This document shows, piece after piece, positions 309-15,151 of a DNA stretch of 22,638 nt. Within the stretch, counting starts at the first letter, position 1, and each line of letters opens with the position of its first letter. The stretch is from positions 1 through 22,638 of IMG/VR virus record IMGVR_UViG_3300025644_000176; one strand, written 5' to 3'. The stretch comes from a virus. The notes under the pieces are model-generated. The model did no database searches and had not been told where the DNA came from. It saw nothing but the letters and a program-made list of their open reading frames with translations. The position numbers and the translations under genes were made by a program.

Positions 309-380
309 TCCTTTTTTATTGTAATATAACTATATTATATCATACTTTTAAGCATCTGTAAAGTGCAAAACCGTATTATT
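309..380 (-). repeat. Promoter-RBS cassette, copy A (duplicate of 1037-1108)
   Basis: These 72 bp match 1037-1108 at 70 positions; the two differences, at 329-330, are AC here and GT there. They form the 2-nt centre of a perfect dyad (TAATATA, 2 nt, TATATTA; 322-337) spanning the -10 and the predicted start site. The cassette carries upstream element, -35, -10, dyad, A-rich leader and the start of the Shine-Dalgarno. Confidence 0.9.
334..362 (-). promoter_or_regulatory. Sigma70-type early promoter with extended -10
   Basis: On the minus strand TTTACA (362-357) is followed by a 17-bp spacer and TATAAT (339-334), preceded by TG to give TGATATAAT. The upstream bases TACGGTTTTGCAC recur at other promoters here. 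Predicted start is near 327, giving a leader of about 23 nt that holds the Shine-Dalgarno of the 1-304 gene. It begins just after the cytochrome gene's stop codon. Confidence 0.85.
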
Positions 381-660
381 CACCAAATAAATATAAGCCA
401 ATATCTTCTTCATACCCAGCCGCCATAGGTGCCATCGCGTTCATCGTTGAATCCACTCTAGCGCCAGTTTGAAAATCCTTCAACTGTTTAACAATAAAAG
501 CCGTATCTTTCCCAGCCAAGCTTGGATATACAGGAATTGATGAAACACCACTCACTCCATGACAACCACTACAACCAAGACTATTATACATCGCCTCACC
601 ATTAACCGCGTCGCCTGCATTAACATTTAATGCAAGAAATAACATCGCCAATTTTTTCAT
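376..660 (-). CDS. Class I c-type cytochrome (c4/c553-like), exported
   Basis: A 94-aa monohaem cytochrome c, an electron carrier that would act in the host periplasm. A short signal peptide (residues 1-15: KK, then a hydrophobic run, then VNA before Gly16) precedes a haem-binding CSGCH at 30-34. A YPSLAG block (45-50) and QLKDFQTGAR (59-68), typical of the c4/c5-type fold, follow. Met73, Met76 or Met79 (MNAMAPM) can serve as the axial haem ligand. It is short, ending in GLYLFGE where free cytochromes usually have a longer last helix. A strong Shine-Dalgarno AAGGAG lies 8 nt before ATG. It has no promoter of its own and follows two small unknown genes. Electron-transfer carriers of this kind are rare in phages; the natural reading is an auxiliary metabolic gene supporting host respiration (inference). 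Maturation would need the host Ccm/Ccs system. Confidence 0.9.
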   Translation of the reverse strand: MKKLAMLFLALNVNAGDAVNGEAMYNSLGCSGCHGVSGVSSIPVYPSLAGKDTAFIVKQLKDFQTGARVDSTMNAMAPMAAGYEEDIGLYLFGE

Positions 661-678
661 ATCTTTTTCTCCTTTTTT

Positions 679-873
679 TTAAATTGTTTTACCTTTCATT
701 AAAAACCACTCATCTTTAATTAGAGATAGGACGTGATCTGAAAATTCAAATAATATTTCATCATCATCATTATCCACATCCACAGCACCTATAATATCAT
801 GTCTAATGAAGAAGATATGCTCATCTCTTTTTATTTTATGATAAAGATAATCTCCCACCTTAGTTAGACTCAT
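679..873 (-). CDS. Hypothetical 64-aa phage protein
   Basis: The start is set at ATG 873 (MSLTKVGDYLYHK) because AAAGGAG lies 5 nt upstream; the frame opens 7 codons earlier but without a ribosome-binding site. The product is small and acidic, with a VDVDNDDDE stretch in the middle and a KDEWFLMKGK ending, and no recognisable catalytic motif. It overlaps the end of the 860-1030 gene by 14 bp, so translation is probably coupled. The cytochrome gene follows 18 bp downstream. The basic N-terminal half, acidic centre and lack of membrane segment suggest a small soluble early protein. Function unknown. Confidence 0.7.
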   Translation of the reverse strand: MSLTKVGDYLYHKIKRDEHIFFIRHDIIGAVDVDNDDDEILFEFSDHVLSLIKDEWFLMKGKTI

Positions 874-1030
874 TATGCTCCTTTGCATCCGCATACCCCG
901 ACAAATAGTCTTGATATTCAGGTGAGTCTTCTCTTAAAACTATGTCAGTGCCCTGACCACCATCACAATATCCGGCTATATAATATCTATTCTTTGTATT
1001 TAAAAAATTATTCTTTTCACTGTTATTCAT
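860..1030 (-). CDS. Hypothetical 56-aa phage protein
   Basis: A short ORF beginning MNNSEKNNFLNTKNRYY and ending AKEHNESN. Its start is very well supported: AAGGA sits 6 nt before ATG 1030 and a full promoter cassette (1037-1108) lies directly upstream. Its 3' end carries the Shine-Dalgarno and start codon of the next gene (679-873), the overlap style seen throughout the window. The middle contains YIAGYCDGGQGTD, with one cysteine. I see no known motif. Likely a small early protein of unknown role. Confidence 0.75.
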   Translation of the reverse strand: MNNSEKNNFLNTKNRYYIAGYCDGGQGTDIVLREDSPEYQDYLSGYADAKEHNESN

Positions 1031-1036
1031 AGTATA

Positions 1037-1108
1037 TCCTTTTTTATTGTAATATAGTTATATTATATCATACTTTTAAGCATCTGTAAAGTGCAAAACC
1101 GTATTATT
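1037..1108 (-). repeat. Promoter-RBS cassette, copy B (duplicate of 309-380)
   Basis: This copy matches 309-380 except at 1057-1058 (GT instead of AC), the centre of the dyad at 1050-1065. Its distal half is read in frame as the last codons of the methyltransferase gene, so the cassette doubles as coding sequence. Confidence 0.9.
1062..1090 (-). promoter_or_regulatory. Sigma70-type early promoter with extended -10
   Basis: TTTACA (1090-1085), 17-bp spacer, TGA-TATAAT (TATAAT at 1067-1062). It reads into the 860-1030, 679-873 and cytochrome genes. It lies partly inside the 3' end of the methyltransferase gene, whose stop codon (1078-1076) falls within the spacer. Confidence 0.85.
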
Positions 1109-1903
1109 TTCAATCTTTCTCCAAAATGCGGGTCTACCGTTCCAACACTTGGTTGCAATTTTTTCATATCCCCATTTTTTCATAGTCTTATTAAATAATC
1201 TATTCATCTGTGGTTTAGTATATGTAACCCCACCATGATAATATTCGTTGAAGTGGCCAATCGCGTCCTGTGTAAAAGCATTGGCTAATAACAAATATCT
1301 TGGATTGGTGTTTATTAAAATATCCTCTAAATGTTCTATGGGGTGATCCCAATGTTCAAAGTATTCTGATGCGAAGATTAGATCTACACTCCCTAAACTA
1401 GAATGGTCGGGTAGCATTGTAAATCCATATTGATTGCCTAAATCTTCTGCCATGGTATATTGATGACTTCCCACTACATTAGTTCCATATACAGTAGCGT
1501 TGGGAAATATATCTCGTTTAAGTACTGATGTAGTATAGCCCACGCCATTGCCTAAATCCACGACTGTATTAACACCCACCATTTGAGATACTACACCTAA
1601 TCTGACAATATCTTTTAAATATTGTCTAGAGTACTTAGTCCAACATAGCCAAGTTTCACAGAAATAATATGGACTTTCATATACGGAATAGTCAGGTACC
1701 CCAGAAGATAATGAATTGTACCATTGGCCCATTAGATTATCCATTTCAACCATTTCTGATTTATCGGAATCTGGTTTATTATGATTTCTTATGGCCGCCC
1801 GTGTAGTGATACGAGCCTTATCAATATCAATATTCCCATGACGAGCACAAAAATCTAGATATTTATCTAAGCCTTTTTTACCAACTTCATTTATCATAAT
1901 CAT
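1076..1903 (-). CDS. Class I SAM-dependent methyltransferase-like protein
   Basis: A 275-aa protein with a Rossmann methyltransferase core: motif I VVDLGNGVGY (114-123, SAM-binding glycine loop), a second strand VYGTNV (138-143) and the motif IV region VDLIFASEYFEHWDHP (173-188). Substrate unknown: the EYFEHW block resembles small-molecule or sugar methyltransferases more than the DPPY/NPPY motif of amino-methylating DNA enzymes. A Cys/Trp-rich stretch (about 78-90) and a basic tail (CWNGRPAFWRK) may bind substrate. ATG 1903 overlaps the end of the HTH gene by 17 bp, so the two are probably co-translated; Met3 is an alternative start. The last eight codons (TVLHFTDA) are made of promoter sequence for the next transcript. 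A link to the sugar genes further downstream in the genome is possible but not shown. Confidence 0.75.
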   Translation of the reverse strand: MIMINEVGKKGLDKYLDFCARHGNIDIDKARITTRAAIRNHNKPDSDKSEMVEMDNLMGQWYNSLSSGVPDYSVYESPYYFCETWLCWTKYSRQYLKDIVRLGVVSQMVGVNTVVDLGNGVGYTTSVLKRDIFPNATVYGTNVVGSHQYTMAEDLGNQYGFTMLPDHSSLGSVDLIFASEYFEHWDHPIEHLEDILINTNPRYLLLANAFTQDAIGHFNEYYHGGVTYTKPQMNRLFNKTMKKWGYEKIATKCWNGRPAFWRKIENNTVLHFTDA

Positions 1904-2069
1904 TATCCAAGTACATCTTCTTCATGTCCTGTGCTTGTTTCATTTTGGATAATTTTTCCAGAGCGGCTTTTTCGATTGCGTAAACGCGTTGACGTGTAAT
2001 ACCCATCACATCCGCTACTTCTTGTAGTGACATCACCGGCTCAATACCTAGAGTTTTCATTTTTGACAT
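1887..2069 (-). CDS. Small HTH protein resembling sigma70 region 4
   Basis: A 60-aa protein whose centre, SLQEVADVMGITRQRVYAIE (residues 14-33), reads like sigma-factor region 4.2: a Leu-Glu-Glu-Val helix, a GITRQRV turn and recognition helix, then IEKAALEKL. Region 4.2 binds the -35 element; here it is nearly the whole protein, with no room for other sigma regions. It could be a promoter-specific activator, an anti-sigma mimic or a repressor (inference). A promoter (2102-2130) with a conserved start-site dyad sits directly upstream, and AAAGG lies about 9 nt before ATG 2069. The tail overlaps the start of the methyltransferase gene. Members of the HTH superfamily are hard to separate at this length, so DNA binding is the firm part of the call. 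Confidence 0.75.
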   Translation of the reverse strand: MSKMKTLGIEPVMSLQEVADVMGITRQRVYAIEKAALEKLSKMKQAQDMKKMYLDNDYDK

Positions 2070-3891: not shown

Positions 3892-4737
3892 CTAAGCGTT
3901 GTTATTAGTGTTTTGGTGGATATTATAACTAACATTTTGTGCCTTTTCCCTATCATCCAACTCATATAGATTTCTATATTCATTATTTCTCGTGATGGTT
4001 TCCCTAATGATAGTTAAATCTGGGAATAGATTAGAGATTGCCGTGGTGTCTTTAGGGAAGCAGGCGCCCCCATATCCTTTTCTACCATCTGGGCCAGGGA
4101 CTGAAGTATGGCTTATTCCAATTCTTGGGTCTGCGGTAATGCCCTTCATAATCTCTGAATAAGAACAACCGAAAGATTCTATCGCGTCCGACCATTGATT
4201 GAAGAATAAGACTTTGGCTGCCAAGAAAGAATTCATTCCATATTTAACAAAACTTGCCTCCGGTGCAGACATATGATATTTTGGTGCAGGTATGCAGATA
4301 GTATTGTTATTATAATACTCTTCCAATAATTTAGTAACATTGGGTCTACCACCGAATACGTGATGCGTAGCATGTTCAAAGTCATGCAGAGCATTAGTCT
4401 CAGTTAAGAATTCAGGATTGTATACAAATCTCTCATAGGTATCAGATAAAGATTTAACAATATCTGGAGTCACTGTGGACTTCAAAACAATGATACCATC
4501 ATAGCCATTAATCTCTTTTATCACAGTATCGATAATGGATGAATCAATACTACCATCGCCGCTCATAGGTGTCGGCACACAGATGAAGATAACTTCTGGA
4601 TTTGAGGCCATTACATCTTTTGTGGTAGTTCCCAATAAAGGATCTGAGATCACGATACTATTATCATCTTTAGTAAAGCCATGCACCACCGCCTTACCAA
4701 CAAACCCATTACCAATTACACCAATGTTTATACACAT
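3892..4737 (-). CDS. Short UDP-glucose/GDP-mannose dehydrogenase family protein
   Basis: Predicted to oxidise a nucleotide sugar, most likely UDP-glucose to UDP-glucuronate, using two NAD+. The NAD-binding loop is GNGFVG (9-14), followed by CVPTP (53-57), VLKSTV (84-89) and NPEFLTE (107-113). Lys165 and Asn169 (ASFVKYGMN) and catalytic Cys226 in GYGGACFPKD complete the active site. At 281 aa it is much shorter than the usual roughly 390-450: the third, UDP-binding Rossmann domain is missing and only a short Asn-rich tail (NIHQNTNNNA) follows. I recall short forms of this kind in other phages. ATG 4737 overlaps the epimerase end by 10 bp, with GGAG 8 nt upstream. With the adjacent epimerase and glycosyltransferase it suggests synthesis and use of an activated sugar. 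Confidence 0.88.
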   Translation of the reverse strand: MCINIGVIGNGFVGKAVVHGFTKDDNSIVISDPLLGTTTKDVMASNPEVIFICVPTPMSGDGSIDSSIIDTVIKEINGYDGIIVLKSTVTPDIVKSLSDTYERFVYNPEFLTETNALHDFEHATHHVFGGRPNVTKLLEEYYNNNTICIPAPKYHMSAPEASFVKYGMNSFLAAKVLFFNQWSDAIESFGCSYSEIMKGITADPRIGISHTSVPGPDGRKGYGGACFPKDTTAISNLFPDLTIIRETITRNNEYRNLYELDDREKAQNVSYNIHQNTNNNA

Positions 4738-5597
4738 AAATCCAACTCCATAATATAATTCATCAAATTACCTTTCTCCACCCAACCTAGGGCCTTCGTC
4801 TTACTAGTCCTTACTTCACCCATCATTCTATTGCCAGGTCTTTCCGGTATGAATTCAATCACAGGCCTAGGCCCTTTAATTGCAATCATTTCAGCAATAG
4901 TGGCTATGGTGTATGCAGTATCAGAGCCTATACCATAGCCATCACCTTCACCCTTCTCACCCACAAGTATAATACCATTGATAATATCATCAATATATGT
5001 AAAGTTCCTCATTTGAGTTCCAGGATTTACCACACTTATCTTTTCGCCATTTCTAACCTTTTCAAGGAATAGAGCAACCACAGTAGCGTACTTACCAGTC
5101 TTAATCTCTCTACCACCGTACACATTATAGAAATAAGTAATGGCATAGTCAATTCCGAACCATTCACCATAGTTTATTACAAGATCCGTATTGGAAGCTT
5201 TAGACCAAGCGTATGGACTCTGATCCCTGCCAGTATTATCATCGGCAAATTTAGTACTCGACCCCGAATAGATTAATCTTGCACCATATTTTCTAACAAA
5301 CTCCAATACAGCGAATGTGCCCTTTTTATTATACTCCAATACTAATTCTACATCTTCAAAGCTTTGTTCCACCCTAGAATATTCACCTAGGTGATAGATA
5401 ATCTCTATATCGGGGTCAATTAATGTTTCAATATCCTTGGTTGAACCAGTAACATATCTCACCCCCGATATGTGATTAAAGATTGAGCCGGTGAAGTAAT
5501 TATCCAGCGAAGTAACTTCATGACCTTCACCCACCAATCTTTCACATAGGTGTGAACCAATAAAACCTGCACCACCCGTCACCAATATTTTAATCAT
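4728..5597 (-). CDS. NAD-dependent sugar-nucleotide epimerase/dehydratase (extended SDR)
   Basis: A 289-aa extended short-chain dehydrogenase. It has the NAD-binding GGAGFIGSH at 8-16, D32N33 after strand 2, the catalytic triad Ser113/114 (YSGSS), Tyr129 and Lys133 (SPYAWSK), and the RNFTYIDD block common to UDP-sugar enzymes. The reaction could be 4-epimerisation, 4,6-dehydration or UDP-glucuronate decarboxylation; the sequence alone does not decide. The neighbouring UDP-glucose dehydrogenase makes a UDP-glucuronate-derived sugar attractive (inference). The start at 5597 (MIKILVTGG) is chosen because the SDR fold begins there; the frame is open for 19 more codons upstream, but those lie inside the preceding gene. 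AGGAG lies about 12 nt upstream and the start overlaps that gene by 8 bp. Confidence 0.9.
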   Translation of the reverse strand: MIKILVTGGAGFIGSHLCERLVGEGHEVTSLDNYFTGSIFNHISGVRYVTGSTKDIETLIDPDIEIIYHLGEYSRVEQSFEDVELVLEYNKKGTFAVLEFVRKYGARLIYSGSSTKFADDNTGRDQSPYAWSKASNTDLVINYGEWFGIDYAITYFYNVYGGREIKTGKYATVVALFLEKVRNGEKISVVNPGTQMRNFTYIDDIINGIILVGEKGEGDGYGIGSDTAYTIATIAEMIAIKGPRPVIEFIPERPGNRMMGEVRTSKTKALGWVEKGNLMNYIMELDLCV

Positions 5598-5919
5598 ATC
5601 TACCCGTAGCTCCTGTTGCGTCTTCAGCCTTGGCCGCGTCTTCACCATCTTCATCCATCCATCTCAATAAAGAGTTTCTATTTCTATCTAATACTGGGTA
5701 CCAAATACTTTTAGTCTTGTTGGTGATCTGAGGTTGACCAATAAGGTCTGCAAAATCTCTAATGTCTTTATCATTACGGAAACGAATTTTAAGCACCAAG
5801 GGAGCTTCGTTATCCTCTTGTATAAATTCCGGCATATCGTCCCAACCGAACGGTGTTTGTTCTTCCTCTCTACCCGTCATTACGAGTAAATTCTGTGGCT
5901 TATCATTTTTCTTAGGCAT
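5590..5919 (-). CDS. Hypothetical 109-aa protein beside the glycosyltransferase
   Basis: A 109-aa soluble protein. The core (about 25-88) contains TPFGWDDMPEF (22-32) and a beta-alpha unit (PLVLKIRFRNDKDIRDFADLIG), then KTKSIWYP and SLLRWMDEDG. The tail is low-complexity, rich in Ala, Asp and Gly. I believe I have seen this TPFGWDDMPEF...KTKSIWYP pattern in other phage proteins of unknown function, but cannot confirm it here. ATG 5919 overlaps the glycosyltransferase stop by 8 bp and has AAGGAAG 6 nt upstream, so tight coupling to that gene suggests a role in the same process. No catalytic residues can be named. Confidence 0.75.
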   Translation of the reverse strand: MPKKNDKPQNLLVMTGREEEQTPFGWDDMPEFIQEDNEAPLVLKIRFRNDKDIRDFADLIGQPQITNKTKSIWYPVLDRNRNSLLRWMDEDGEDAAKAEDATGATGRYD

Positions 5920-9493: not shown

Positions 9494-9781
9494 TTACCAA
9501 TCAGGGGTGTTAAAATTTAAACCGGAGGTGGTGGCCATGTCGGCTTTATTCTCCGTCTCGGTGGCGTACATAAATTCAGGTGAGTATGCCGCCATACCCT
9601 GAGCCTCAATATTATCATCATTAATTTCAGCCATACCGAATAGAGCTTTATCAATCATTTTATTTTCTTCAACCATTGAAACCGCGTTCATCGAAATATC
9701 CAATTTAGATGAGCCATGAAGTCTTCGTTGTTTAGCTTCATATTGTAGTTTTTCTCTTCTGTTCATGCCTCTAGTATTCAT
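9494..9781 (-). CDS. Hypothetical 95-aa phage protein
   Basis: Begins with a basic, helical stretch (MNTRGMNRREKLQYEAKQRRLHG as a pattern, residues 1-23), then Met-rich and acidic segments, and ends in SGLNFNTPDW. ATG 9781 is preceded by AAGGAAG about 5 nt away and by a promoter (9811-9839), so it heads the transcript that carries topoisomerase medium subunit and RNase H. The basic N-terminus and acidic, probably disordered remainder suggest a small DNA- or protein-binding accessory factor (inference). Seven methionines besides the start are notable. Family not recognised. Confidence 0.72.
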   Translation of the reverse strand: MNTRGMNRREKLQYEAKQRRLHGSSKLDISMNAVSMVEENKMIDKALFGMAEINDDNIEAQGMAAYSPEFMYATETENKADMATTSGLNFNTPDW

Positions 9782-9810
9782 ATCACTTCCTTTTCAATTG
9801 TTATATGTAT

Positions 9811-9839
9811 ATTATATCATAAAATAGGGCCTGTGTAAA
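9811..9839 (-). promoter_or_regulatory. Sigma70-type early promoter with extended -10
   Basis: TTTACA (9839-9834), 17-bp spacer, TGA-TATAAT (TATAAT at 9816-9811), with the shared upstream sequence AATACGGTTTTGCAC (about 9854-9840). It sits between the NTP-pyrophosphatase-like gene and the 95-aa gene, about 30 bp before the latter's ATG. Confidence 0.85.
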
Positions 9840-9858
9840 GTGCAAAACCGTATTTATT

Positions 9859-10152
9859 TTAATCTTTTAACAATAGACCATCGGAAAACGATCCATTTGT
9901 GATAACCTTCTCTATTTTGGCCTTAAGTACATCATCTTCATCAACTCCGTGTGCCTTCATAATAGCTAAGAAAACTTCATACACATCTGCATATTCATTA
10001 ACATCGCTCCAATCAGAGTCGGCAAGTTCCTGCAACTCCTCATTTAGTTTATCCATCAAAAATTTCTTATATGTTTCACCCTTAGGGTCTACATTAGATA
10101 ATCTTGACTTAGGTATAATATCTCTATATTTGTTTCTTATTAATTTATACAT
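9859..10152 (-). CDS. MazG-like all-alpha NTP pyrophosphatase family protein
   Basis: A 97-aa, all-helical protein. It opens YKLIRNKYRDIIPK, then EELQELADS and EYADVYEVFLAIMKAHG, ending in KVITNGSFSDGLLLKD. This matches the pattern of phosphoribosyl-ATP-pyrophosphatase/MazG-like proteins: a basic KLxRxK N-terminus, an EExxEL helix and an E(x)xxD metal-binding pair, with the GxFxxGxxL tail of the house-cleaning NTP-PPase group. Such enzymes hydrolyse unwanted NTPs or dNTPs to the monophosphate. ATG 10152 overlaps the topoisomerase stop as TAATG, so that start is preferred to a TTG five codons upstream. Co-translation with topoisomerase places it in the replication programme. Confidence 0.75.
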   Translation of the reverse strand: MYKLIRNKYRDIIPKSRLSNVDPKGETYKKFLMDKLNEELQELADSDWSDVNEYADVYEVFLAIMKAHGVDEDDVLKAKIEKVITNGSFSDGLLLKD

Positions 10153-14361: not shown

Positions 14362-14412
14362 TTTGTGTCTCCGTTTTATTAAAAGTAACACCTTTTTTTA
14401 TTTTATATGTAT

Positions 14413-14441
14413 ATTATATCATATTCTAATGCATTTGTAAA
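14413..14441 (-). promoter_or_regulatory. Sigma70-type early promoter with extended -10
   Basis: TTTACA (14441-14436), 17-bp spacer, TGA-TATAAT (TATAAT at 14418-14413), with the shared AATACGGTTTTGCAC upstream. The leader is about 45 nt, longer than at the other sites, to ATG 14361. Confidence 0.85.
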
Positions 14442-14483
14442 GTGCAAAACCGTATTTATTTTAACATTAATGATCTGTTCATA

Positions 14484-14609
14484 TTACTTTTTCTCATTAA
14501 TAATCTTATCAAGGTATTCAAAGAACTCATCCACAATTTGTTTACCCATCATGTTATCAACCGCCCTTCTTTGAGCCTCTTCTTGTTTTTTAGTAATTTT
14601 TCTTTTCAT
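14484..14609 (-). CDS. Small charged protein, 41 aa
   Basis: An ORF encoding MKRKITKKQEEAQRRAVDN then MMGKQIVDEFFEYLDKIINEKK. It is basic at the start, and the second half is an amphipathic helix (IVDEFFEYLDKII). AAGGA lies 7 nt before ATG 14609 and a promoter (14640-14667) directly precedes it, so expression is well supported. It stands alone in its transcript before the next promoter at 14413-14441. It could be a small binding protein aimed at a host factor (inference). Family not recognised. Confidence 0.72.
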   Translation of the reverse strand: MKRKITKKQEEAQRRAVDNMMGKQIVDEFFEYLDKIINEKK

Positions 14610-14639
14610 ATTATATCCTTTTTTATTGTTTATAGTTAT

Positions 14640-14667
14640 ATTATATCATAACTACGGCGAAAGTACA
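14640..14667 (-). promoter_or_regulatory. Extended -10 promoter directly after the terminator
   Basis: TGTACT (14667-14662), 16-bp spacer, TGA-TATAAT (TATAAT at 14645-14640), then ATAACTATAAACAATAAAAA leading into AAGGA. The spacer is one base shorter than at the other sites and the -35 is weaker. It starts new transcripts just 17 bp past the terminator hairpins. Confidence 0.75.
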
Positions 14668-14683
14668 GCGCTATCATCAAATA

Positions 14684-14742
14684 AAAAGGGATATAAAAAG
14701 GTATCCCTTAAGGGATATAAAAAGGTATCCCTTAAGGGATAC
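14684..14742 (-). terminator. Tandem palindromic Rho-independent terminator
   Basis: Read on the minus strand, the 8-bp arms AAGGGATA and TATCCCTT alternate. Two 24-bp hairpin units (14710-14733 and 14686-14709) each have an 8-bp perfect stem and the loop CCTTTTTA, and a further AAGGGATA-complement lies at 14734-14741. The last hairpin is followed by TTTATTTG, a usable U-tract. Adjacent arms can also pair as a 16-bp palindrome (TATCCCTTAAGGGATA), giving competing folds. The stop codon of the SegE-like gene is inside the first arm. Confidence 0.8.
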
Positions 14743-15151
14743 TAAGATTCTTGACTGAATTGTGGTTTAGTTTAATGGCGATAATGCCATTGTAGTTGTC
14801 TTCTCGTAATAGAACATTTTCTTGAACTTGATACCACATCTCCATGTAGTTGGTCTCACCACGAGTTTTACAGAGATGGATAATTTCTCTTTTGAATACC
14901 CCTTTACCAAGCTCTTCAATAGCCGCGGTAAGTCTATTCGACGAACCATAGTAAGAATCCCAATCGGTTTCAACTATTTTAATTCGTTTTCGTTTCTTGC
15001 CCTTCAATGGTTTTAATTTACGTTTGGTGTAAAAATACTTCCTTCCAACATAATCATACCCATTATCAGTATTGGTGATGCGATATATAAAACCGTAGTT
15101 TTCACCAATATCTTCCTTTTCAAATTTTTTGCCATTATATATCCATTCCAT
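14732..15151 (-). CDS. SegE-like GIY-YIG domain protein
   Basis: A 139-aa protein resembling the SegE-type GIY-YIG putative endonucleases of T4-like phages. The core pair is GFIYRITN (20-27) and YVGRKYF (34-40), followed by a very basic stretch KLKPLKGKKRKRIKIVE and then DWDSYYGSS, FKREIIHLC and NYMEMWYQ, where Glu103 is the likely metal ligand. It ends with YNGIIAIKLNHNSVK. This would be a nicking or cleaving endonuclease, possibly domesticated. It lies directly after nrdB, and homing nucleases are often found near nrd genes in T4-like phages. There is no intron sign in nrdB here. It starts 22 bp after nrdB without a clear Shine-Dalgarno and ends inside the terminator. Confidence 0.75.
   Translation of the reverse strand: MEWIYNGKKFEKEDIGENYGFIYRITNTDNGYDYVGRKYFYTKRKLKPLKGKKRKRIKIVETDWDSYYGSSNRLTAAIEELGKGVFKREIIHLCKTRGETNYMEMWYQVQENVLLREDNYNGIIAIKLNHNSVKNLSIP

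Follow-up and report, generated by a model that had tools for sequence, protein, structure and literature searches.

The stretch of viral DNA analysed here, which we call the window, is a 22.6-kb fragment from an incomplete record classed as virus, with a GC content of about 35%. It encodes, on one strand, a set of T4-type genes (topoisomerase subunits, RNase H, DNA ligase, primase, and an aerobic ribonucleotide reductase) that are ~40% identical to those of deposited phages. At 376-660 lies a small cytochrome c gene (660-376). It follows two other small ORFs (1030-860 and 894-679), and all three lie between two copies of a promoter-like sequence. The features of this region are as follows.

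334-362, minus strand: second perfect copy of the promoter core, just 3' of the cytochrome stop; presumed driver of ORF 2-304
376-660, minus strand: monohaem class I cytochrome c gene, 94 aa, ATG start, stop within the coordinates
442-444, minus strand: Met73, probable sixth (axial) haem ligand, invariant in 23 sequences
511-528, minus strand: YPSLAG loop, residues 45-50; P46, L48, and G50 are family-invariant
559-573, minus strand: CSGCH haem-attachment motif, residues 30-34; His34 is the proximal ligand
616-660, minus strand: putative signal peptide MKKLAMLFLALNVNA, residues 1-15, assigned purely from hydropathy
669-674, minus strand: Shine-Dalgarno sequence AAGGAG, 8 nt 5' of the cytochrome ATG
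679-894, minus strand: small ORF of 71 aa without a family match, directly upstream of the cytochrome and in the same presumed transcription unit
860-1030, minus strand: small ORF of 56 aa without a family match, the first gene after the promoter core at 1062-1090
1062-1090, minus strand: promoter-like core TTTACA-17-TATAAT, presumed driver of 1030 to 376

The same 32-base sequence recurs without a mismatch in both promoters, whose -35/-10 cores lie at 334-362 and 1062-1090; 0 such copies would be expected by chance. Altogether, six related promoter-like copies are present in the window (334-362, 1062-1090, 2102-2130, near 9775-9867, 14376-14462, and 14605-14650). The element consists of TTTACA-17-TATAAT inside TATGATATAATATA, plus AAAAGGA, and the copies diverge beyond the -10 core; it is likely a phage regulon promoter. 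Right after one of the copies, a 60-aa protein encoded at 1887-2069 (minus strand) matches sigma-70 region 4 (PF04545, E 1e-7) and is a candidate phage transcription regulator. A different repeat, the nearly palindromic 24-base unit AAGGGATATAAAAAGGTATCCCTT, occurs in perfect tandem, with 2.3 copies, at 14686-14741, where ORF 14732-15151 ends, and is possibly a terminator or binding site.

Two further IMG/VR contigs carry an identical cytochrome gene and flanks, with 2-3 mismatches to the window over about 8.5 kb (at least 99.97% identity) across the gene and both flanks. Since the identical gene recurs in two other contigs and is accompanied by phage flanks and repeated promoters, we conclude that it is a real phage gene. 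An earlier note on this DNA had placed it between phage genes and phage promoters, and this was borne out, as the flanking ORFs are phage genes and a copy of the 32-base promoter sequence lies on either side.

Fold of the encoded protein

ORF 376-660 translates to MKKLAMLFLALNVNAGDAVNGEAMYNSLGCSGCHGVSGVSSIPVYPSLAGKDTAFIVKQLKDFQTGARVDSTMNAMAPMAAGYEEDIGLYLFGE (94 aa). The characteristics that the earlier note had read from it, namely the CSGCH haem site, the YPSLAG segment, the Met axial-ligand region, and a compact gene with a Shine-Dalgarno sequence, were all recovered. C30, C33, and H34 are invariant across 23 aligned relatives, and Met73 falls, in the alignment, on the TM of Colwellia c552 (4o1w), the Met ligand of c552-type cytochromes. 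The protein scores 24.5 bits against Pfam PF00034 (Cytochrom_C), over the curated cut-off of 21.3 (E 7e-5). In the PDB, cytochrome c4 was the best sequence match (1e-16), and Colwellia c552 (4o1w) was found with E 1e-15. The leader is short at 15 aa and is composed of KK, an 8-aa hydrophobic stretch (mean KD 2.94), and VNA|GD. After the leader, the protein would begin with GDAVNGEA, in agreement with GDAAAGKA and AGDAAAGQ, with which solved relatives begin in their mature form, and the cytochrome is putatively exported.

To this we can add a structural model, computed with AlphaFold2 from a 23-sequence alignment, which has a pLDDT of 96-98 for residues 21-94. Confidence was low in the leader only (residues 1-16), as expected for a leader that is cleaved. 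The model contains helices at 19-27, 31-34, 53-65, 71-80, and 84-93 and takes the class I fold, with its C-terminal helix present. Comparison by Foldseek and VIA-align superposed model residues 17-94 on Colwellia c552 (4o1w) with Z 13.8 and 1.1 Å over 76 residues; the next structural matches were other c552/c554 proteins, flavocytochrome c subunits, and c4. Among the viral structures of BFVD, none matched at E < 0.001. Structure prediction had been proposed as a check on whether the haem pocket is closed, and a class I fold so near to 4o1w speaks in its favour. Read from its sequence and model, the phage protein is a complete class I monohaem cytochrome c, in which haem would be covalently bound and redox active.

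Family relationships and probable host

A first genome scan gave its best matches in a 'Candidatus Thioglobus' MAG (L009) and a 'PS1 clade' MAG (L010). A match was present in 79 of the 83 genomes of the order holding 'Candidatus Thioglobus', which NCBI lists under Gammaproteobacteria; in keeping with the record titles, we take this order to be the SUP05/Thioglobaceae group (GTDB order PS1). At all 28 loci that were read (L177-L204), a cytochrome c of ~100-110 aa is encoded directly upstream of the dihaem cytochrome c4. Its ten closest copies share 65-75% identity with the phage protein, the top one being L179 with 75% over the mature protein.

The trees support this relationship. In a 271-row tree, the phage protein fell within a 24-row set with support 99*, and also in a 97* clade. 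In a focused tree, it lies inside the family branch (100/100), and its sister is the cytochrome of a second phage contig, L205, at a weak 77/88. An AU test did not reject the phage genes held with the outgroup (p 0.42), so the exact branch of the phage genes is tentative, as is their finer placement with a short alignment of 76 columns. Phylogeny had been suggested as a way to find the donor lineage; the protein falls inside a cytochrome c family, and the donor lineage is probably of Thioglobaceae type. A Colwellia-type c552 and c4 itself were early matches and thus candidate donors, but the trees split both from the Thioglobaceae family.

L205 is a different T4-like contig, with a ligase 48% and an RNase H 41% identical to those of the window. 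Its cytochrome orthologue is 60% identical to the window's, has a similar leader (MKKLTILFLALALNANAGD), and keeps the motifs intact. The leaders of the host copies (MKKILLVAAAAAISMGSFSVQA) are unlike the phage leaders, and a leader that is shared by the phages but not by the hosts fits a single capture by a phage ancestor.

The short Thioglobaceae/SUP05-type cytochromes c (~105 aa; L179, L182, L186, L181, L009, and L010) share with the phage protein the CxxCH motif, Met73, and the length of the C-terminal helix. The phage protein differs from them by its shorter leader (15 compared with ~22 aa), by its GDAVNGEA mature start, and by the c4 gene, which is absent from the phage window and present beside the cytochrome at every host locus read. 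A missing c4 neighbour is expected for a gene that has moved into a phage, and it limits our claim to membership in the protein family. Colwellia psychrerythraea c552 (4o1w) is likewise a class I monohaem protein of the same fold, at 41% identity, but the C-terminal part of Colwellia-type c552 is about 4 residues longer, and its Colwellia relatives branch apart from the donor clade in the tree. In dihaem c4 (6q2u, 1etp; bc1-cbb3-bound in 8smr), the neighbour of the host orthologue, each half is homologous to the phage protein, which has one haem domain where c4 has two. ORF 376-660 is almost certainly a genuine phage-borne cytochrome c of the short monohaem family of Thioglobaceae.

These relatives also bear out the expectation that the gene may point to the host group, and they indicate SUP05/Thioglobaceae-type Gammaproteobacteria, both by their presence across the order and by the family branch of the tree. 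The host is very probably of Thioglobaceae type, and a probable host is thereby suggested for an unassigned phage group. SUP05-type bacteria are important in the carbon, sulfur, and nitrogen cycles of low-oxygen seawater. When 20 kb of the 22.6-kb window was compared with the 83 genomes of the order, DNA similarity was limited to one sugar-epimerase region (in two genomes) and short stretches, too little to decide the host. The epimerase of the window is 60-62% identical to proteins of two Thioglobus-order genomes; at 3892-5654 (minus strand), the window encodes a UDP-glucose/GDP-mannose dehydrogenase and a sugar epimerase. CcmH was found in 77 of the 83 genomes, and ccoN (cbb3 oxidase) exceeded the cut-off in 46. 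Weaker ccoN matches, at frames of 536-550 aa in many genomes of the order, probably belong to other haem-copper oxidases.

Proposed role and alternative explanations

We propose, with a probability of roughly two in three, that the phage cytochrome is a functional electron carrier that supports respiration during infection. The source, a T4-like phage, would infect SUP05/Thioglobaceae-type sulfur-oxidising Gammaproteobacteria and would have derived its cytochrome gene from its host. The protein would be exported via Sec and acquire its haem from the Ccm machinery of the host; in the periplasm, it could serve as an extra mobile one-electron carrier. Electrons may come from the bc1 complex or from sulfur-oxidation donors and may pass to cytochrome c4 or to terminal oxidases of the cbb3 or aa3 type, by which the proton-motive force and the ATP supply would be sustained while the phage replicates. 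Cytochrome c4 feeds cbb3 oxidase and belongs to the Pseudomonas bc1-cbb3 supercomplex (8smr). The effect on host electron flow that the earlier note had considered is probable; we infer this function from the class I cytochrome c fold and the donor-family placement. If the proposal is true, the respiratory chain is another target of phages, which would draw on it at cytochrome c, in SUP05-type respiration or sulfur oxidation. A small, easily expressed phage cytochrome with a clear host partner (c4) offers a direct object for testing it.

We regard it as unlikely that the phage cytochrome instead redirects electrons, in which case it would compete at c4, at the oxidase, or at a sulfur-oxidising enzyme with the orthologue of the host and pass electrons towards another acceptor that suits the phage. 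Cyanophage plastocyanin has been discussed as such a diverted carrier (PMC10452541), and there are several phage-specific substitutions. The phage copies are also more acidic, with a mature net charge of -5 compared with 0 for L179, but host copy L186 has a charge of -4 and the difference is near the spread among the host copies. Moreover, the phage protein retains the haem ligands and almost every family-invariant position. Electron diversion is the weaker rival, without a strong reason in the sequence to favour it.

Somewhat less probable still is that the gene is a transduced passenger, that is, a recently captured host gene of no benefit to the phage. It is small and comes last in a presumed transcription unit made up of small, unknown ORFs, and because the two sister contigs hardly differ from the window, the three alone show no selection. 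The cytochrome gene has its own Shine-Dalgarno sequence, however, and the diverged orthologue in the other lineage, with its similar phage-type leader and intact motifs, argues against a passenger. Comparison of the window and L205 genes gave dN 0.29, dS 1.75, and a dN/dS of about 0.17, which is a rough value since dS is near saturation; with that reservation, the phage cytochrome is apparently under purifying selection. It is most likely a host-derived auxiliary metabolic gene that has been kept by selection. A search for sister phages by means of the ligase yielded 57 loci, and the stretches examined contained no further soluble cytochrome.

It is very improbable that the protein is a degraded or minimal cytochrome without a closed haem pocket. 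This idea goes back to the earlier note, which had described a shortened C-terminal helix and had raised the question of a minimal functional form. The C-terminal part is indeed about 4 residues shorter than in the c552 and c4 proteins, but equally short proteins make up the host family, which is ubiquitous in the order. The C-terminal alignment between the phage protein and its closest host copies is gap-free (alignment A3), and the phage protein matches the family pattern MxxMAxxxxGxExxIxxxL plus about 3 residues. The superposition on Colwellia c552 extends through residue 94, the last of the phage model, in which the pLDDT is high throughout the mature part. The C-terminal length is therefore a trait of the family and does not mark a minimal form that arose in the phage, and we reject a truncated cytochrome on the strength of the same-length relatives and the complete model.

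An assembly chimera or host contamination, conceivable for metagenomic contigs and an incomplete virus record, is ruled out for practical purposes by the two contigs that match across the gene and both flanks, by the phage ORFs and repeated phage promoters around it, by the absence of the host c4 neighbour, and by L205, which repeats the association in a second phage.

Other electron carriers of phages

Phage-borne electron carriers are already known from cyanophages, in which plastocyanin (petE) and ferredoxin (petF) are likewise soluble and of host origin (PMC10452541). The cyanophage carriers hold copper or iron-sulfur and belong to photosynthetic hosts, whereas the phage cytochrome holds haem c and its host is probably a sulfur-oxidising chemotroph. 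Phages of SUP05 carry dsrC acquired from SUP05 itself, and phages of sulfur oxidisers carry sox genes (soxYZ, soxC, and soxD), of which soxD bears cytochrome c motifs; these auxiliary genes act in sulfur chemistry, and the accessible parts of these papers describe no comparable monohaem soluble cytochrome c (PMC4164917, PMC8190135). We found no phage monohaem soluble cytochrome c described in the open-access literature, and the phage cytochrome had zero matches in 50,697 records of deposited phages.

The view that soluble cytochromes c are uncommon in phages thus holds for deposited phages, but not for marine metagenomic phages, among which cytochromes c of a second family are common. A search of IMG/VR with the family alignment returned about 78 contigs (L091-L168) with a different, monohaem cytochrome c, comprising 45 distinct proteins. 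These proteins (~147 aa) have an N-terminal hydrophobic, presumably membrane-spanning helix and SCTGxCY, followed by SGCAACHG...MSSTMWxQAG, and they match Pfam cytochrome c (for example, L110:5773-6216, L147:5773-6216, and L106:5773-6216). Their context is T4-like, and they adjoin either nrdB and glutaredoxin or, by sequence inspection, gp46/gp47-like recombination genes. The family was absent from deposited phages, and the window has no such cytochrome at the corresponding place. A model of the membrane-anchored protein was of low confidence (pLDDT 57).

The membrane-anchored family is possibly the more general finding, and it suggests that phage cytochromes c are more frequent than one would gather from GenBank. 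We put forward, tentatively and at somewhat less than even odds, that cytochromes c have repeatedly been acquired by marine T4-like phages whose hosts respire and are not photosynthetic (at least 2 families, the soluble SUP05-type carrier and the membrane-anchored one) and that control of the host respiratory chain is a common strategy of phages. If this is true, control at the cytochrome c step would be the respiratory counterpart of the photosynthesis genes of cyanophages.

Two further proteins are encoded beside these genes. A one-helix protein of 63-68 aa (KILQVVNLSPDES...HPMKQ.A.MSVVQV), which had no Pfam match, directly adjoins the membrane-anchored cytochrome in several contigs (L163:5585-5776, L106:6216-6422, and L097:6216-6422) and could be its partner subunit. 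In one contig, a DoxX-like membrane protein, named by eye, is encoded directly downstream of the phage cytochrome (L164:6212-6670).
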